From: a virus | DNA length: 32,035 nucleotides | IMG/VR virus record: IMGVR_UViG_3300025326_000142 | Span: 1-32,035 of that record | Reading direction: 5' to 3' (one strand) | Shown here: piece by piece, positions 12,850 to 28,291 of the stretch | Layout of the letters: each line of letters begins with the position of its first letter | Position numbering within the stretch: the stretch's first letter is position 1 | Notes under the pieces: generated by a model | The model's input: the letters and a program-made list of their open reading frames with translations, nothing else | Told to the model about the DNA's origin: nothing | Database searches by the model: none | Program-made: the position numbers and the translations under genes

Positions 12850-15576
12850 TCATTGTACGTTCTGTTTGGGTTGGCCAGGGTAAATCTCCACTTCGATACC
12901 GGAGGCAGCCATGTTTCCATCGGCGCAGTCCAGCTCGACCATCAGGGTCCGAGCCCACTTCCGGATGGGCACCGTCCAGATCACGGGGGCAGATCCCTCC
13001 CGGCCGATGGCGTCCTCGCCGATCACGAAGTTACCGATGATGGCGGCATCCATCGGGTTCTGGTTCACCGTGAAGGATACCGGTGCATGATGGTCCAGCC
13101 AATACTGACCGGTGACCACACCGACATCTGGCTTGCGAAAGTGGAGCCGGAGGTCCCGGTATTTGCGGTAATCGGACGGTGTACCGCTGTGGAGCCACAT
13201 GGTCCGCAGCTTGCTTGTGTGCTGCACGGACCCCAGCTCGTTCATCCGGCTGTCTTGATCCAGGCGAAGGACGTAGCCCTGATCCGTCCCGATCAGCAGC
13301 TCCTCCTCCGTGGTATCGGGGTTGACCCGGGAATGGATCGCGGTCACATGGAAGTCGGGGAACTTCCAGACTGACCAGGCCCCAAGGGCGTAGTCGTATA
13401 CCAGGATGGTCCGGGGGACTCCACCGTCGCCGCTGGCGGCCATTGTGAGGCAGTACCAGTTCTTCTTGCGGTAGTGGCACGCCTGGGCTTTGGGGTAGAA
13501 ATCCTTGTCAAAGCCCCTGAACAGGTTCTGGATGGGGGCACTCAGGTACTTCTCCTCCACATCGCCAAAGCGATCGGTGGTCAGGAGCGAGTGAACCCCC
13601 TTGCGCGAGAGGAACAGGACATCCGCCCCGATGTTGACGGCGGAGTTGGGGGCCACACACCCGATGCTCGTGGAGGAGGTGACCAGGGCGAACCCAAGCT
13701 GGGAGGTCTCAACACTGAGCCCATGCGTGGAGCCCTTGAGGCGCATGAAGGCCGTTCGGCCGAAGATCACCAGGTCTCCGTAGAAGGACTTGAGCGCGGT
13801 GGCCGGCTGCCCCCCGGGGAGGTCGTTCAGCTGGAAGAAGGCTGGCTCTTCCTCGTTCGTGGGGGCGGGGGTGATCTCCATACCCCAACGGGTGTCATCC
13901 AGGAGCGCCGAGGCGGTCAGCCACCTGGGGTTATCCACCTGGATCCCCCAGAGCCGGTTGGCGTGCTGCTCCACTACCCTAAACTTCGGGGGGGTGGCAA
14001 TCCCCCAGGTGTTGGTGACGTTGCTGGTGGTGGCTGCCGCACCGTCCCAGGACTTGAGGATATTTTCCCCGTCGGCGATGTAGATTCGGTCCAGGAAGTT
14101 GGCGGTGGAAGCGATGGGCTCAAACTTGCCGTTGCCGATCAGGTTCCCCACGAACTCGGTGCCACCGGCATCGTGGTAGATCCCATCCCCGATGTAGGCC
14201 ACCAGGCGGCGGACTTCGGTGGCAGTTGCAGCGTCGTATTTCTCGAAGTCGGCCAGCTTGACGATGTCTCCGAAGGAGGTTTCCAGTTCGGCATCGCTGA
14301 CCGTGTAGGCCACTGGGTTCCTAGTGGACCATAGGTAATAGTTCTGTACTTGAGAGGACGGTGTGTCGTCCTTGCTAGAGGCGATCACAGCTTGGACAAC
14401 GGGGGTTTTAACACCGATCACTGCTCCGCCAGCATTCTCGATTACTTGGCCAGCATAAGAGGGCAGCGCGGTGGTGGTCAGGGTGTCGTCCGTCCGATTC
14501 CACCGGAGGTGTTTGTAGGTCTGTGGACTGGAATCCCCACTGCCCTGGATGAAGTGGCTGTGGCCCCCTTCATCCACGGCCAGATCGATGAACTCCTCAA
14601 TGTACTCCGCACCCCCGGAGGCATCTTGGCCGATGGTAACCCCCAGGTCCTTGACCGCCCCGATCACGTTCCCGCCAAGGTCGAGGCGGGCTGCCCGAGC
14701 AGTCTGGGCGGAGTCTGTGGACCCAAAGACGCAATGGAACTCCTGGTGGGTGGGGTCGAAGACCACCTTGGGGTACTTGAGCTGGCGGGCCCCAACCCCA
14801 CTGTAGGTGTGGAGGCTCAGGGGGCCGGACCAGGTGGATCCATCCCAGTACATCCGGGCTACGCTGAATGCGGTAGTGCCGCTGCCATAGTGGACGATGG
14901 CCACAGCTCGATTGGTTGCCCCAGCAGCCACTGCGCACACCCCACCGTTGATCCCAGCTCCAAGGCCGAGATCGGTGGCTGCTCCCCAGGCTCCGCTGCC
15001 GGTGTACTGGAAGTAGTTGTAGGCGCTGGTGACCGTGTTGAAGGCCACGATGAACCCGGTCCCATCGGGGGCAAAACCGACACTCGGGGTCTGGTAGGTG
15101 ATTCCAGGGTCCAGGGCGATTTCCGAGGACCAGCTGGCTCCCTGATCATCCGAATACTTGGCACGAAGATAGCCTGCTGTAGTCGGGCTACCTGCATTGT
15201 ATGTGCCGAGGGTAACTAAATATACACACCACACCCTCCCATCGCCCACAATACCCTCAGTAAGGTCCAGAGCAATATTCGGCGCGCCGTAGTTCCACGC
15301 ACGCCCTGTAGATTCTGGTACAACCTCACTTTGGCGAACTAGGGTGTCGGTGTCAAGGTCATACAACCCAAAGCCAACCCCACTATTATCAATTCCTCCC
15401 GGAGCCGAAAGATGGACTCCACTAAACTCGAACACAAGGTAGATCCACCGCCGGTCCAACCAATTCTGACACGAACGAAGGTAGCTTTCGGTAAACCGGT
15501 TTGGATCTCCGAAGGTAGGATCTGTGGTGACCGTGAACCCGGGGTTGAGTTGGGTGAGGGTGGTGCTCCAGGCCAT
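12850..15576 (-). CDS. Tail nozzle/stabilisation-like beta-propeller protein with N-terminal Asp-box region (908 aa)
   Basis: ATG 15576 has its own GGAG seven bases upstream. Residues 1 to about 425 look like a sialidase-type propeller, with an Asp-box at 142-149 (SDDQGASW) and repeated strand-turn motifs. Residues about 440-908 resemble the core of podovirus nozzle or DNA-stabilisation proteins: VAYIGDGIYHDAGG, FLDRIYIADGENILKSWDG, then DVLFLSRKGVHSLLTTDRFGD and IPVYDYALGAWSVW-like segments. Known proteins of this kind close the tail tip and hold the DNA. The usual N-terminal cap is missing here and is found in the separate 63-residue gene just upstream. Confidence 0.75.
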   Translation of the reverse strand: MAWSTTLTQLNPGFTVTTDPTFGDPNRFTESYLRSCQNWLDRRWIYLVFEFSGVHLSAPGGIDNSGVGFGLYDLDTDTLVRQSEVVPESTGRAWNYGAPNIALDLTEGIVGDGRVWCVYLVTLGTYNAGSPTTAGYLRAKYSDDQGASWSSEIALDPGITYQTPSVGFAPDGTGFIVAFNTVTSAYNYFQYTGSGAWGAATDLGLGAGINGGVCAVAAGATNRAVAIVHYGSGTTAFSVARMYWDGSTWSGPLSLHTYSGVGARQLKYPKVVFDPTHQEFHCVFGSTDSAQTARAARLDLGGNVIGAVKDLGVTIGQDASGGAEYIEEFIDLAVDEGGHSHFIQGSGDSSPQTYKHLRWNRTDDTLTTTALPSYAGQVIENAGGAVIGVKTPVVQAVIASSKDDTPSSQVQNYYLWSTRNPVAYTVSDAELETSFGDIVKLADFEKYDAATATEVRRLVAYIGDGIYHDAGGTEFVGNLIGNGKFEPIASTANFLDRIYIADGENILKSWDGAAATTSNVTNTWGIATPPKFRVVEQHANRLWGIQVDNPRWLTASALLDDTRWGMEITPAPTNEEEPAFFQLNDLPGGQPATALKSFYGDLVIFGRTAFMRLKGSTHGLSVETSQLGFALVTSSTSIGCVAPNSAVNIGADVLFLSRKGVHSLLTTDRFGDVEEKYLSAPIQNLFRGFDKDFYPKAQACHYRKKNWYCLTMAASGDGGVPRTILVYDYALGAWSVWKFPDFHVTAIHSRVNPDTTEEELLIGTDQGYVLRLDQDSRMNELGSVQHTSKLRTMWLHSGTPSDYRKYRDLRLHFRKPDVGVVTGQYWLDHHAPVSFTVNQNPMDAAIIGNFVIGEDAIGREGSAPVIWTVPIRKWARTLMVELDCADGNMAASGIEVEIYPGQPKQNVQ

Positions 15577-16116: not shown

Positions 16117-17091
16117 TTACAGTTGGGCCCTGATGACGTGCAGGGTGGCCTCATCCAGGCGGTCCCACATCACCCCGGCGAGGATGTTGGCCCTGGTGGA
16201 CTGATCCACTTGGAGCTGGAGGAAGGGGGAGTCAAAGGCTTCCTGCTCCTGCAACATCTGGCGCAGCCAGAACTCGAAGTCCTGGGAAGCTAGGGCTGTC
16301 CGGCTGGCGTCGTCCAGCTGGTGCTTGTAGTATTGCCGGAGAACCCCGTCAACCAGGATCTCTTGATATTCGGATGGGATCAGGGGGATGTCAGAGTCTT
16401 CCACCAGATCATCAGCCTTGCGGATGTACTTCACCAGCACATCCTGCGCGGTCTTCGGGCAGGGGTCAAACCACAGGATCCTGTTCCCGGCTTCATCCAC
16501 CCCGAAGGCGGTGTAGTGGCTGGGGTCCTGCACGTAGATCAGGGAGCCCCGGCGCTGCCGGCGGTCCTCCAGTTCATCCGAACTAAGGGGGGCCAGGATG
16601 ATGGCATCCCTGGGGCGGGTGATGGTCCTGACCCGGCGGTACTTGGTGGGGAAGCTGTACCTGGGGCGGACGATCTGGTAGGTGGCCGTGGTGTTGGCAT
16701 CCACAATTGAACTTGTCAGAACAAGGCTAGTGTTGGAGGCCACCGTCTGGATCTCGTAATACTCCTGCTTGCCGATCAACTTGAAGTAGTCCCCGGGGAG
16801 AATGCCGCTCGTGACCCAAGTGGTGGTGGTCCCGGTGACCGTGGTGGAACCGGCGGTATTGGCCACGGTGCCGGTGGAATAAGCCGGAAAGAGCCGGATT
16901 CGGGTCTCCTTTTCCAGCCACCACCATTCCCGTAGGATCTCCACCTCATGGTAGACCCGGTTCACCAGCTCAGCGATCACCAGGTCGGAACTGGCGGCGG
17001 GGCTGGCCAACCCAAGCAGGGTGGCTAGATCACCGGTCTGATCCTCACCCACCCGGCGGCGGATCCGGTTGACGATCTGGAGGTAGTTCAT
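16117..17091 (-). CDS. Head-tail adaptor / tail tubular protein A-like (324 aa)
   Basis: ATG 17091 follows GAGG at a good distance. The N-terminal helices (YLQIVNRIRRRVGE, ASSDLVIAELVNRVYHEVE, WWWLEKETRIRLF) and the C-terminal helices (EYQEILVDGVLRQYYKH) form the four-helix adaptor pattern common in podoviruses. Between them is a beta-sandwich insertion (GTVANTAGSTTVTGTTTTW to ATYQIVRPRYSFP), also usual for this family. The role would be to extend the portal ring and hold the nozzle. Its place directly before the nozzle-like genes supports this. A head-completion protein is a close alternative. Confidence 0.75.
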   Translation of the reverse strand: MNYLQIVNRIRRRVGEDQTGDLATLLGLASPAASSDLVIAELVNRVYHEVEILREWWWLEKETRIRLFPAYSTGTVANTAGSTTVTGTTTTWVTSGILPGDYFKLIGKQEYYEIQTVASNTSLVLTSSIVDANTTATYQIVRPRYSFPTKYRRVRTITRPRDAIILAPLSSDELEDRRQRRGSLIYVQDPSHYTAFGVDEAGNRILWFDPCPKTAQDVLVKYIRKADDLVEDSDIPLIPSEYQEILVDGVLRQYYKHQLDDASRTALASQDFEFWLRQMLQEQEAFDSPFLQLQVDQSTRANILAGVMWDRLDEATLHVIRAQL

Positions 17092-17101
17092 GGGCGGAAC
17101 C

Positions 17102-17998
17102 TCAGTCTCCTGCCCCCGCGCAGGACAGAATCCTGGGAGTAAAGTTCACATTGACCGTCATGTAGTCGATTCCCCAGCGGGGGGTGCCAACCTTGGCGTC
17201 CTTGTTGTGGACCAGGTAGGCCGGGCTGCCAGCAAAGTAAACCCCGCCGGTAACCGTGAAGCAGAAGACCTCTACGGCCTCGGGGTACTCGATGTGCTCA
17301 ATCAAGGTGATCTCTACCAACTCCTGGTTGATGTCCATCAGATGCTCCCCGAGCTGAACAAACTGGGCCTGCTTCTGCCGCCGCCCGTTGATCATCAGGG
17401 GGTGCTCGGGGGTCACCGTGAAGGCGTTGTTGAACCGGTAGAATTTCTGCCCTGTGCCGCTCGTCACAGCCTGCACGACCGCCGCCCCCTCAAGCCCTTT
17501 CAGCTCCGTCCCAACAACCACATCCTCTACCAGGATGGAGTCCCCACTGGTGAGGGTCAAGACCTCCCCCTTGGGGTGGCACGTAAAGATGCCCGCACGG
17601 ACGCGGAAGTTGCTGCTTGTGAGTTGTGCAGACGTAAAGTACATCCCCCAGGTGTCCATTGTGCCTCCCAGTGTGTATTCGGTTTCGACGGTGGTGATGA
17701 CTTGATCCTTGGTTGAAGAAATTGAAGTGCCCCCATCGTTGGTTAGTGACAAGCGGATTCCCCCACCGACCCAGTTGCCACTGGTGTATTTCGCCTGGAT
17801 CTTGACCGTAACCCCAAGAATACGGCTGCCGTTGAACGGGGTGGTTCCCCAGGCGAAGGTGTACATGTCCATGATACCAGTCCCGATCACGCTCTCACCA
17901 CGATCGGCAAACTGGTTGTTGTCCGTCTCAACCCGGACGGCGTTGGACCAGCCGTTGGCAACCTGATCGGTACAGGGGGTTGCACCAGTTGTTGGCAT
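17102..17998 (-). CDS. Virion beta-sandwich protein interrupted by a Hint (intein-like) domain
   Basis: The 298-residue protein starts at ATG 17998 after AGGA. Residues 1-139 look like a virion beta-sandwich domain, with strands such as RILGVTVKIQAKYT and GGIRLSLTNDGG. Residues 140-265 form a complete Hint domain: Cys140 at the start (CHPKGEVLTLTSGD), a TPEH motif with His199, and a C-terminal block ending in VHN with His264 and Asn265. Residues 266-298 return to the beta-sandwich (TPRWGIDYMTVNVNFTP). The residue after Asn265 is Lys, not Cys, Ser or Thr, so normal intein splicing cannot finish; the pattern fits a bacterial-intein-like domain that cleaves or splices by another path. No homing endonuclease fits in 126 residues. 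Confidence 0.8.
   Translation of the reverse strand: MPTTGATPCTDQVANGWSNAVRVETDNNQFADRGESVIGTGIMDMYTFAWGTTPFNGSRILGVTVKIQAKYTSGNWVGGGIRLSLTNDGGTSISSTKDQVITTVETEYTLGGTMDTWGMYFTSAQLTSSNFRVRAGIFTCHPKGEVLTLTSGDSILVEDVVVGTELKGLEGAAVVQAVTSGTGQKFYRFNNAFTVTPEHPLMINGRRQKQAQFVQLGEHLMDINQELVEITLIEHIEYPEAVEVFCFTVTGGVYFAGSPAYLVHNKDAKVGTPRWGIDYMTVNVNFTPRILSCAGAGD
17204..17581 (-). other. Hint/BIL-like domain coding segment inside the virion protein gene
   Basis: This segment codes for residues 140-265 of the preceding entry, from Cys140 (TGC at 17579-17581) to Asn265. Block A (CHPKGEV ... GDSILVEDVVVGTEL), block B (FTVTPEHPLMI) and the terminal block (VEVFCFTVTGGVYFAG to VHN) appear in the order expected for the Hint fold. 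Flanking sequence reads through in frame on both sides. The base composition looks like its neighbours, so there is no obvious sign of very recent insertion. Confidence 0.8.
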
Positions 17999-19811: not shown

Positions 19812-20300
19812 TCAGACGGGTACAAGTGCAACCGACAACGCCCAGGTGTCAGCTGTGTTGATCGTAGCAGCATTGGTTAGCAGAATTTGGGCGTACACCT
19901 TCCGGACATCCGTGGTCGAATCATAGTCGGTGTAGGACATCCCAACCTCATGGTCTGCGGCAGTCCAGAGGGTGTCGGTGAACTCGAAGGCATCAAGCCC
20001 AAAGATGAACCTGAGATGTCCACGCTCCAGGTCGTTGGCTAGGGTAATGTCCCCGTAGGTTGAGTTGCCGTAGAACGCGAGCCACAGGATCAATCCGGAA
20101 AGCCCACCATCATCTGCATCCTTGATCCGCAGAACCACCGAGTCCAGCACATAGTCCCGCTGGGTGGGGGATACGCCGGGGATGACGGCGGAGATGTTGG
20201 CCGACTCGCCGGTGGCATCAAGCCCACTGGCGGTCGATGACCCCAGGAAGGGGGTGAAGTGAACCCAGATTGGGCGCTGGTCGCCATAGGTTGGATCCAT
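19812..20300 (-). CDS. Virion beta-sandwich protein, paralogue A (162 aa)
   Basis: ATG 20300 has AAGGAGG seven bases upstream. The protein is a near neighbour and clear relative of the next gene upstream: both share RPIWVHF near the start, IPGVSPTQR, DSVVxR, FYGNSTYGD and a final DTADxW segment. The predicted fold is beta-rich throughout. Tandem relatives of this size near the capsid gene suggest capsid decoration or head-fibre subunits. Whether both are in the virion cannot be seen here. Confidence 0.7.
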   Translation of the reverse strand: MDPTYGDQRPIWVHFTPFLGSSTASGLDATGESANISAVIPGVSPTQRDYVLDSVVLRIKDADDGGLSGLILWLAFYGNSTYGDITLANDLERGHLRFIFGLDAFEFTDTLWTAADHEVGMSYTDYDSTTDVRKVYAQILLTNAATINTADTWALSVALVPV

Positions 20301-20315: not shown

Positions 20316-20792
20316 CTACAGTGGGATCAGGCAGACGGAGATCTTCCACGAGTCTGCCGTGTCGAGGGAGGCAGCCCCACCAGCTGGGATCAGGGCTTCC
20401 AAGTAAACCTTACGGGTGGCACTAGTATCCTCGTCCTTGTAGATCATGCTCACCGAGTGGTCACCGAGCGTGGTCAGATTCGTGGTAAATACCGTTCCGT
20501 CTGTACCTGCGGCGAGGGACAACCAGCCCTGGAACCGATCGTTGGCCAGGGTCGCATCCCCATACGTGGAGTTGCCGTAGAAAAGTAGCTGGACAGAGAA
20601 GTCCCCCACCCCTCCAGCAGCGGCGTTGAGCACACGGACCACCACCGAGTCCACCAGATACGTTCGTTGGGTGGGGGAGACCCCCGGGATCGTGGCCGAA
20701 AGCTGCTTCTTATCCGCAATCCCGGCGGTCTCCAACCCGGTAAACGTGTCAAAGTGGACCCAGATGGGTCGCTGAAAACCAAACTCCGGCAT
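20316..20792 (-). CDS. Virion beta-sandwich protein, paralogue B (158 aa)
   Basis: ATG 20792 is preceded by GAGGAGG. It shares with paralogue A the N-terminal RPIWVHF, the IPGVSPTQR turn, FYGNSTYGDATLAND and the DTADSW ending. The two differ most in the loops between strands, for example residues 15-28 and 115-130, as expected after a tandem duplication followed by loop divergence. Function as a decoration or fibre subunit is inferred from context. Confidence 0.7.
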   Translation of the reverse strand: MPEFGFQRPIWVHFDTFTGLETAGIADKKQLSATIPGVSPTQRTYLVDSVVVRVLNAAAGGVGDFSVQLLFYGNSTYGDATLANDRFQGWLSLAAGTDGTVFTTNLTTLGDHSVSMIYKDEDTSATRKVYLEALIPAGGAASLDTADSWKISVCLIPL

Positions 20793-25707: not shown

Positions 25708-25995
25708 TTACTTCACCCCCTCAGATTTGTTGGAAGCCTCATTCAAGGTCATTGCGACCTTCTTCATCTCCTCACCAATCTCAGCTACCCGGCGGTACGC
25801 TCGGTATCGACCCTGCCGCGCACCCCTGGTAAAATCATCGTCGCCGGAGTCATCCATGTGGGCTTTCATCAGTTCATCCATCCAGAGCTTCAGCTGCTCG
25901 ACGAGGGCGAACCACTCGTTCTGCTTGACGAGTTTCCGGATCTCGATTGCTCGACCGAAATCCGTGTGGGTGGTCTTCTTCTGCTGGTTAGCCAA
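25708..25995 (-). CDS. Small helical protein (95 aa)
   Basis: TTG 25995 has GGAGGT a few bases upstream and overlaps the portal stop by 8 bases; GTG 26010 is an alternative. The protein is helical and charged, with an amphipathic middle (EIRKLVKQNEWFALVEQLKLWMDELMKAHM) and an acidic-then-basic stretch (DDSGDDDFTRGARQGRYRAYRR). It follows the portal gene. A head-assembly role is possible; no family is recognised. Confidence 0.55.
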   Translation of the reverse strand: MANQQKKTTHTDFGRAIEIRKLVKQNEWFALVEQLKLWMDELMKAHMDDSGDDDFTRGARQGRYRAYRRVAEIGEEMKKVAMTLNEASNKSEGVK

Positions 25996-28291
25996 GGAGA
26001 CCTCCACCACCTGGGGCCCGCATCGGCCTGGGCTGCCCCGGCATCCGGCGCTCGGTGCCCATCGGGCGGCCCCCGGTGTTCGTGTTCACTTCCGCCTGCT
26101 TGCTCATGAGCTGTTGCATGTGCAGTCCCTCGTGCTCGGCGATCTCCTGGGAGATTCGGGGATCGAGCACAACCCCCATCTCCTGGAAGTCCTGCATCAT
26201 CGATCGAAGCTCCTGGATGTGCTGAAGGTCGTTGTCGGTGGGGAGAACGTCCACCGGGATACCGTTCAGCAGCAGCTCGTTCTCCAGCCGCTGGGGCATC
26301 GGGGCGCGGCTCACCATGTCCAACGGACTCGGGGTGACCTCCCCAGGATTCACCACATCGTACGCCCGGTACAGCCGCTCTAGCCACTTGATGACCTGAG
26401 GATCAGCACCCCGCTGGGTCAAAAGTGGGAGGACCGACTGCCACATCAACAGGGCGTTGGCCTGCCGGACAGCCGGGTTGGCCATCAGCATGTTCACACT
26501 GAACATGAAGTCCGCTCGGCTCGGCATGTCCCGCTTGGTCCGCTCGATCACCTTGATGCCGTTCGGCCCAAGTACCTGAAGTTTCTTGTTCACCGGGTAG
26601 AAGGACATGTACATGTCGTAGACCTGATGAAGCAGCTCGTTGAACCCACTGGAGTCGTCGGCTCCGCCCATCGCAAAGTGCTTGATGATGTGCTGGATCC
26701 GAACCATGCCTTCCCGCATGATCATGTTGGTTCCGCCAAACGTGCGGGGGAACCCGGTCCCAGCACCCACCTGCTTGTTGCCGCCGGCCATCACACTGAA
26801 CTTGCCCGAGCGGGCCTCCGTGAACTGCTGGAGGAGCTGGATGATGGGGAGCAACCGATCGAACGGCGGAGCGGCGATCGCCGGGAAGTGCATCGCCCTG
26901 GTTGGGTCGCCCAACGCGGGGATCCCTTTGCCGGGCCGGACCTGGATGGCCTCCATGCCCTCGAACATCGTTTTGTCGTAGATGAAGGGCATCGAGATGG
27001 CCAGCTGTTGGGCATCGATCGTCTGGTTCAAGAGCGTGTTGATCATGATGCTCATGTTGAACAGGATCTCAGGAAGCCCGATGCCGGTCAGTCGGTTAGC
27101 AATCTGGCGATAACGAAATACAACGACAGGAATACGGCCATGAGGGTAGCGCCGATTAAGGTAGTCCAGAGCCAGGATAGTGCGCGTGTGCCAATCGAAC
27201 TCCAGCACCGCGTCCTCTTCAAAGCCGTCTCCGTCGATGTCATAGCGGAGAAACCGGGTGACAACGGGGCGCGTCCCACTCGACTGCGGGTTCGTGCGGA
27301 TCCCCGTGGTGTCGTCCTTCGCATCCTGCACCTCCCGCGCAGTGGTAGCAGGTTCATGCTTCGTGGTCCGGCGGAGCTTGGCCTGTTGGGCCTTCTTGGG
27401 ATCCTGGGCCTCAAACCCGAGGTGATGCCGCTCGATCTTCTCCCAGTCCGCATCGGTGGCAACGTTGAAGAAGCCCTGCTGCCGGCGGCGCTTGAGCCAG
27501 TCGAAGCTCACCTCTTGGTCCACATCAACAAAGGGGGATTCGGCGATGTCGCCCACATCCGTCGCCCACACCCGGTTGGGTTCGAGGACGGTGAGTCGGG
27601 GGCACTCCTTGACCACGGTTTCCCGCTCGATCTCCAGGACGATCTCACCAGCGTGGTGCTCAGGCTCATGCTCAATCCAGATCTTGATGGTCCGGATCTC
27701 CCCGGAGTCCATGACCCGGACTTCCCAATGATCCGTGAGGTACACCGGGTCACTGATGGCCAGAGTCCCCAGCTCCTTGAGGATGATCTCATCATCAGGG
27801 ACATCAGGGGTGTACTTCCCCACCGGCACCAGGATCTGGGTCAGGGTCTTGCGGACCTTGCGGTCCCAGGAGATGTAGACGAAGCAGGTGCCGTTGATGC
27901 AGGTCTCCTGCACAATGGCTTCCCACTTGCCCCAAGCCTTCATGTCCAACTGGAGGGCCCACTGCATGAAGCCCTCGATGTCCTGGACCAGGGAGTCGTC
28001 GGCACCCTCCACAGGGGCCACGGGGGCCCACTTCTGGTCGCCGAGGAGGACATCCATCGTGCGAGCCACGGTGTCGTCCACGGCCTCTGCAACAACGTCG
28101 AGGGTCACGTTGGCCGCATCGGGCCAGGGGGTGTCCTTCGGAGTAACGTGACCCTCGTACATCCTGCGCCACTGCGGCAATCGTTGTTCCCATTCAGACC
28201 GCTCGGTCTTCACCTGGGTCCGACTGGACTCAATGTAGGTGACGAGATCCCGCTTTTGATCGTCCGTCAGCGTAATCTTACGAAGAGGCAT
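25988..28291 (-). CDS. Portal protein (767 aa)
   Basis: The start is ATG 28291 with AAGGA closely upstream. The N-terminal part has the portal pattern: a charged helix with WEQRLPQWRRMYEG, then TPWPDAANVTLDVVAEAVDD (about 54-73), and a long helix bundle. The middle shows LDYLNRRYPHGRIPVVVFRYRQ and a glycine-rich crown-facing stretch; the C-terminal part is Met- and Gln-rich with a disordered tail ending in GGGGLLG. The length is typical of P22-type portals. It follows TerL by 11 bases. The twelve-subunit ring at the capsid vertex, through which DNA enters and leaves, is known for the family. Confidence 0.9.
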   Translation of the reverse strand: MPLRKITLTDDQKRDLVTYIESSRTQVKTERSEWEQRLPQWRRMYEGHVTPKDTPWPDAANVTLDVVAEAVDDTVARTMDVLLGDQKWAPVAPVEGADDSLVQDIEGFMQWALQLDMKAWGKWEAIVQETCINGTCFVYISWDRKVRKTLTQILVPVGKYTPDVPDDEIILKELGTLAISDPVYLTDHWEVRVMDSGEIRTIKIWIEHEPEHHAGEIVLEIERETVVKECPRLTVLEPNRVWATDVGDIAESPFVDVDQEVSFDWLKRRRQQGFFNVATDADWEKIERHHLGFEAQDPKKAQQAKLRRTTKHEPATTAREVQDAKDDTTGIRTNPQSSGTRPVVTRFLRYDIDGDGFEEDAVLEFDWHTRTILALDYLNRRYPHGRIPVVVFRYRQIANRLTGIGLPEILFNMSIMINTLLNQTIDAQQLAISMPFIYDKTMFEGMEAIQVRPGKGIPALGDPTRAMHFPAIAAPPFDRLLPIIQLLQQFTEARSGKFSVMAGGNKQVGAGTGFPRTFGGTNMIMREGMVRIQHIIKHFAMGGADDSSGFNELLHQVYDMYMSFYPVNKKLQVLGPNGIKVIERTKRDMPSRADFMFSVNMLMANPAVRQANALLMWQSVLPLLTQRGADPQVIKWLERLYRAYDVVNPGEVTPSPLDMVSRAPMPQRLENELLLNGIPVDVLPTDNDLQHIQELRSMMQDFQEMGVVLDPRISQEIAEHEGLHMQQLMSKQAEVNTNTGGRPMGTERRMPGQPRPMRAPGGGGLLG

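Follow-up and report, generated by a model that had tools for sequence, protein, structure and literature searches.

The window analysed here, the whole stretch of 32,035 nucleotides of IMG/VR virus record IMGVR_UViG_3300025326_000142, encodes a 298-amino-acid protein in which a Hint domain, resembling bacterial intein-like (BIL) domains, interrupts a second, host domain. The gene lies directly upstream of that for an SU10-type adaptor, and the genes for an SU10-type portal and a capsid protein are located further upstream (Table 1). A preliminary description of this DNA had placed the reading frame at 17102-17998 and had given no strand. These positions are confirmed, and the frame belongs to the minus strand; translation of the plus strand over the same interval yields no open frame. 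All of the residues named at that time (Cys140, TPEH with His199, VHN with Asn265, and Lys266) are found in the translation, although Cys246, at position 4 of block F (F:4), had been left out of the inventory. Base composition gives no clear sign of a recent import of the Hint domain: its GC content is 0.606 against 0.602 for the window, although its GC3, at 0.84, is higher than that of the two flanks (0.67 and 0.76).

Table 1. Features of the Hint-bearing gene and of two further genes in the window.
Feature	Position	Strand	Basis
ORF, 298 aa, ATG start; split, probably beta-rich domain with Hint insertion	17102..17998	-	translation
Host domain, N-terminal part: residues 1-139; W17, DTWG 115-118, F131	17582..17998	-	21.2 bits to viral domain profile; conserved columns in MAFFT alignment
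Hint (BIL-like) domain, residues 140-265	17204..17581	-	33.5 bits; AF2 pLDDT 91.7; Foldseek to 2lwy TM 0.80
Host domain, C-terminal part: residues 266-298, final strand WGIDYMTVNVNF, and stop	17102..17203	-	aligns to last strand (VDHIRITVYY) of Hint-less relatives
Cys140, position 1, predicted N-S acyl shift nucleophile	17579..17581	-	C in 62/62 relatives, a set chosen by that Cys
TPEH: Thr196 (B:7), His199 (B:10)	17402..17413	-	viral relatives: T 61/62, H 50/62
Cys246, block F position 4	17261..17263	-	position equivalence from profile/alignment; Cys in 0/62 relatives
His264-Asn265, block G, predicted Asn cyclisation	17204..17209	-	translation and profile match
Lys266 at +1, replacing Cys, Ser or Thr	17201..17203	-	translation
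SU10-type adaptor protein, neighbour	16117..17091	-	Pfam SU10_adaptor E=2.9e-16
SU10-type portal protein	25988..28291	-	Pfam SU10_portal E=2.2e-20

The assignment of residues 140-265 to a Hint domain, first made from the sequence alone, is borne out by profile and structure searches. Viral relatives were collected by scanning contigs for DNA encoding a VTPEHP-like block B together with a YFxxGxxVHNK-like block G; 62 of them were selected by the VHNK motif and an N-terminal Cys, so that conservation at these positions is built into the set. Their profile matched exactly residues 140-265 over its full length with 33.5 bits, whereas none of 500 shuffled sequences scored above 6.6 bits. The excised domain also matched two Hint families in Pfam, Vint (E=0.0035) and Intein_splicing (E=0.014), both below the curated cut-offs. 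NCBIfam returned no match and PHROG a weak one only. Structure prediction from the single sequence reached a pLDDT of 31, against a mean pLDDT of 91.7 for an AF2 model built with 23 relatives in the alignment. This model comprises the Hint domain alone, joint alignments of host domain and Hint having misaligned one of the two sets in every trial. With the model as query, Foldseek placed the BIL domain 2lwy first in the PDB (prob 1.00, TMq 0.80), followed by T. thermophila BIL2 and then by inteins, including class 3 DnaB inteins. A profile search had been proposed at the outset as a test of the Hint assignment; when the viral Hints and residues 140-265 were run as a profile against PDB sequences, 2lwy again ranked first (E=1.6e-28).

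Close relatives were found neither in viral contigs nor in genome contigs, phages or plasmids, and the protein is represented by one sequence only. Searches by way of the whole protein, the adjacent adaptor or the capsid protein yielded no relatives or distant ones, and among 380 fetched loci (a sample biased by the fetching) no other protein matched both the Hint and the host-domain profiles. Pfam AXH was matched by 16 of the 24 viral Hint domains in the folding alignment (best E=6e-17), and the profile also matches ataxin-1 chains; a relationship between Hint and AXH is possible.

The two flanks of the Hint domain had been read as parts of one beta-sandwich virion domain, and comparison with Hint-less viral relatives agrees that they form a single domain. 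The core pattern of the host domain (W-N ... DLWG..WT..DIN...FGV ... VDHIRITVYY) was used in a DNA scan that recovered 89 viral stretches, 45 of which entered a profile. Against this profile the protein scored 31.1 bits with residues 140-265 removed, more than the N-terminal part (21.2 bits), the whole protein (20.8 bits) or the C-terminal part (4.6 bits), and the best of 200 shuffles reached 2.7 bits. Several shifted cuts scored 33-35.5 bits, so the excision scores do not fix the exact junction. In a MAFFT alignment of the 298-aa protein with 15 Hint-less relatives there is a single long gap, which falls at the Hint boundaries. Without the Hint, Phe131 and Asp278 are 22 residues apart, compared with 19-22 in those of the Hint-less relatives that were counted. 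The host domain is probably beta-rich, with the Hint inserted in its last long loop. It matched no PHROG family and no PDB entry significantly, one member of the family has one weak Pfam match, and tblastn of the excised flanks against phages found nothing. In four relatives (L216, L221, L226 and L227) a segment like HYLKATNFGFSIPxGATIxGIxVEVER appears, by eye, to have moved from the first half of the domain to the last loop, and a segment swap or permutation of the host domain is possible.

In two Manatee Spring podovirus records the host domain starts a protein annotated as tail tubular protein A (148.9 and 120.1 bits), and the gene order there is terminase, portal, capsid, then the host-domain-bearing protein. 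Based on synteny and on these two records, we infer that the 298-aa protein is a virion protein of an SU10-like podovirus. The window's adaptor has no sequence match among the Manatee proteins. Other genes of the window have peculiarities of their own. Many tail fibre PHROGs contain short modules that match the adaptor at residues about 70-141, and SU10_adaptor covers only residues 132-282; an inserted domain is possible. Two adjacent minus-strand ORFs of the structural block, 19812-20300 and 20316-20792, encode proteins that look similar by eye (..RPIWVHF.., ..PGVSPTQR..), as in a tandem duplication. Among the PHROG matches of the 908-aa product of 12850-15576 (minus strand) are a family that bears the name amidase (E=5.6e-16) and further ones with names of virion structural or of tail proteins; it is doubtful that the amidase name suits a gene at this position after the adaptor.

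Hint domains that lack a +1 nucleophile recur in viruses. Among 111 viral Hints sampled regardless of the +1 residue, Cys, Ser or Thr occupies this position in 95; the other 16 have K (4), G (3), A (3), F (2), V (2), R (1) or P (1). Some nucleophile-less Hints occur in what we take, by eye, to be tail or virion proteins, before CEGPI/CGPI (L031, L371) or before DPxxQTF (L057, L299). In the sample selected for Lys at +1, a number of proteins (L034, L035, L038, L039, L066, L077 and others) end exactly at ..VHNK, and other Hints are internal, some of these being followed by glycine-rich linkers. A Hint is also located at the C-terminal end of a tail-region protein in two phages with cultured hosts, Alcaligenes phage Afa-NA1 (L383, 4032-5462, with collagen repeats) and Achromobacter phage 2-1 (L384, 4083-5525).

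Position F:4 is Asp in class 1 inteins and Cys in class 3 inteins (PMC4031507). Of the 62 viral relatives, 37 have Asn here, 11 Gln and 8 Thr, and none has Cys; in the profile alignment 2lwy has Asn. Four viral inteins (L323, L325, L362 and L379) combine Cys1 and an F:4 Cys with Cys at +1, so that the Cys1/F:4 Cys pair is not confined to the present protein; in the sampled viral Hints it does not occur with a non-nucleophilic +1 residue. Cys246 may be a second thioester carrier, it may form a redox-sensitive disulfide with Cys140, or its presence may be due to chance.

In inteins, Thr B:7, His B:10 and F:4 serve the N-terminal junction and Asn cyclisation serves the C-terminal one, and in type A BILs without a +1 nucleophile cleavage dominates, splicing being possible when the freed amine attacks the thioester (PMC4031507; PMC7664689). 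By analogy, we suggest that residues 140-265 form a type A BIL-like mini-Hint of 126 aa, without a homing endonuclease, that probably cuts itself out, the outcome being cleavage with a certain amount of splicing by aminolysis. Cys140, helped by Thr196 and His199, would attack the Thr139-Cys140 bond to form a thioester, and Asn265 would cyclise with the help of His264 and free the amine of Lys266. Attack of this alpha-amine on the thioester would then produce a spliced protein of 172 aa; alternatively, hydrolysis of the thioester would result in cleavage, with the halves possibly remaining paired. It can be argued that amine and thioester should be close and ligation favoured, because both flanks form one domain. 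Excision with substantial splicing seems to us to have a little less than an even chance, and cross-linking or another capture of the thioester is quite improbable.

Self-excision has to be weighed against the reading that the Hint is an inert or structural insertion, its catalysis lost or its fold kept as a loop decoration, in a protein that works uncut. The missing +1 nucleophile and the non-canonical F:4 residue would agree with this, as would the replacement of three otherwise conserved Hint residues (Thr145 to Glu, Asp164 to Thr and Gly260 to Ala). Hint termini are usually near each other, so such an insertion might be tolerated unexcised. However, Cys1, Thr B:7, His B:10, His G:6 and Asn G:7 have all been kept despite only 21-31% identity to relatives, and we consider an inert insertion unlikely. 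A decaying canonical intein, the +1 nucleophile of which was recently lost, would likewise be inserted within one domain and have the intein-like fold predicted here. But the homing endonuclease is absent, BIL domains outrank inteins in both PDB searches, and Lys at +1 is shared by many of the fetched viral Hints (a set selected for it), all of which makes this origin very unlikely.

If the domain is active, the two junctions might be cut and never ligated, with fragments 1-139 and 266-298 staying paired in one fold or a new terminus being exposed as a maturation step. We regard this outcome as somewhat unlikely: cleavage products prevail in BILs (PMC4031507; PMC7664689), and paired halves are compatible with one-domain flanks, yet such flanks, and the normal loop length obtained when they are rejoined, suit ligation. 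The thioester might also be captured by an amine on a second subunit, and the two would then become covalently cross-linked as the particle assembles. This is chemically possible, and Hedgehog passes its thioester to cholesterol, but it seems very unlikely. A phage-specific use of Hint chemistry in assembly, in which the acyl group moves between Cys140 and Cys246 and is released by the Lys266 alpha-amine or by a neighbouring subunit, and in which a Cys140-Cys246 disulfide acts as a redox switch, is highly unlikely. If it did apply, release by Lys266 would be a splicing event by which a structural domain is completed on cue, and release by a neighbour would cross-link the virion covalently.

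Two things set this locus apart: a Hint that interrupts one structural-block domain, and the Cys at F:4. In the literature surveyed, most of the phage inteins described reside in terminases or in enzymes of replication, and BILs are known from variable bacterial proteins; no published description of this class was found in the open-access literature, although one may exist. If the domain cuts itself out, the product of a structural gene would self-process while the particle is being built. Taken together, a BIL-like domain in the structural block and the large number of viral Hints that carry Lys at +1 suggest that phages may use Hints for the self-processing of structural proteins more often than has been described, and the protein is a small system that can be tested directly.

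The Hint domain described here shares features with several known systems. It consists of a Hint only, 126 aa without an endonuclease domain, and is not a homing intein. PT-HINT domains have the same fold and a terminal VHN, and in phages tblastn with the whole protein gave a single match, in a Ruminococcus phage, to a PT-HINT-like protein that is 34% identical over 79 residues (E=0.06). A PT-HINT polymorphic toxin is rejected: no toxin domain follows the Hint, and the 33 residues that do follow it are accounted for by the last strand of the host domain. Class 3 inteins of the DnaB type also have Cys at F:4 and are a good structural match in Foldseek. They carry the Trp-Cys-Thr (WCT) motif (PMC7664689), of which only Cys246 is present here; Leu201 (B:12) and Val263 (G:5) replace Trp and Thr. 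They also have neither Cys nor Ser at position 1, which here is Cys140, and a class 3 intein is rejected on these features. The class 1 mini-inteins of phage proteins, such as terminase inteins, resemble it in predicted fold, in their blocks and in being inserted in a host domain, which here becomes whole on excision, but their +1 residue is Cys, Ser or Thr, not Lys. Type A character, as proposed in the preliminary description, is upheld by Cys1, the block B Thr-x-x-His, the C-terminal His-Asn, a +1 residue that is neither Cys nor Ser nor Thr, the predicted Hint fold, and the first rank of BIL domains in structure and profile searches. The type A BIL of Clostridium thermocellum (2lwy) has the same Cys1, block B Thr and His, and terminal His-Asn, and likewise has neither a +1 nucleophile nor an endonuclease. 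In contrast to 2lwy, the phage Hint has Cys instead of Asn at F:4 and is embedded in a structural-block protein, between flanks that form one domain.
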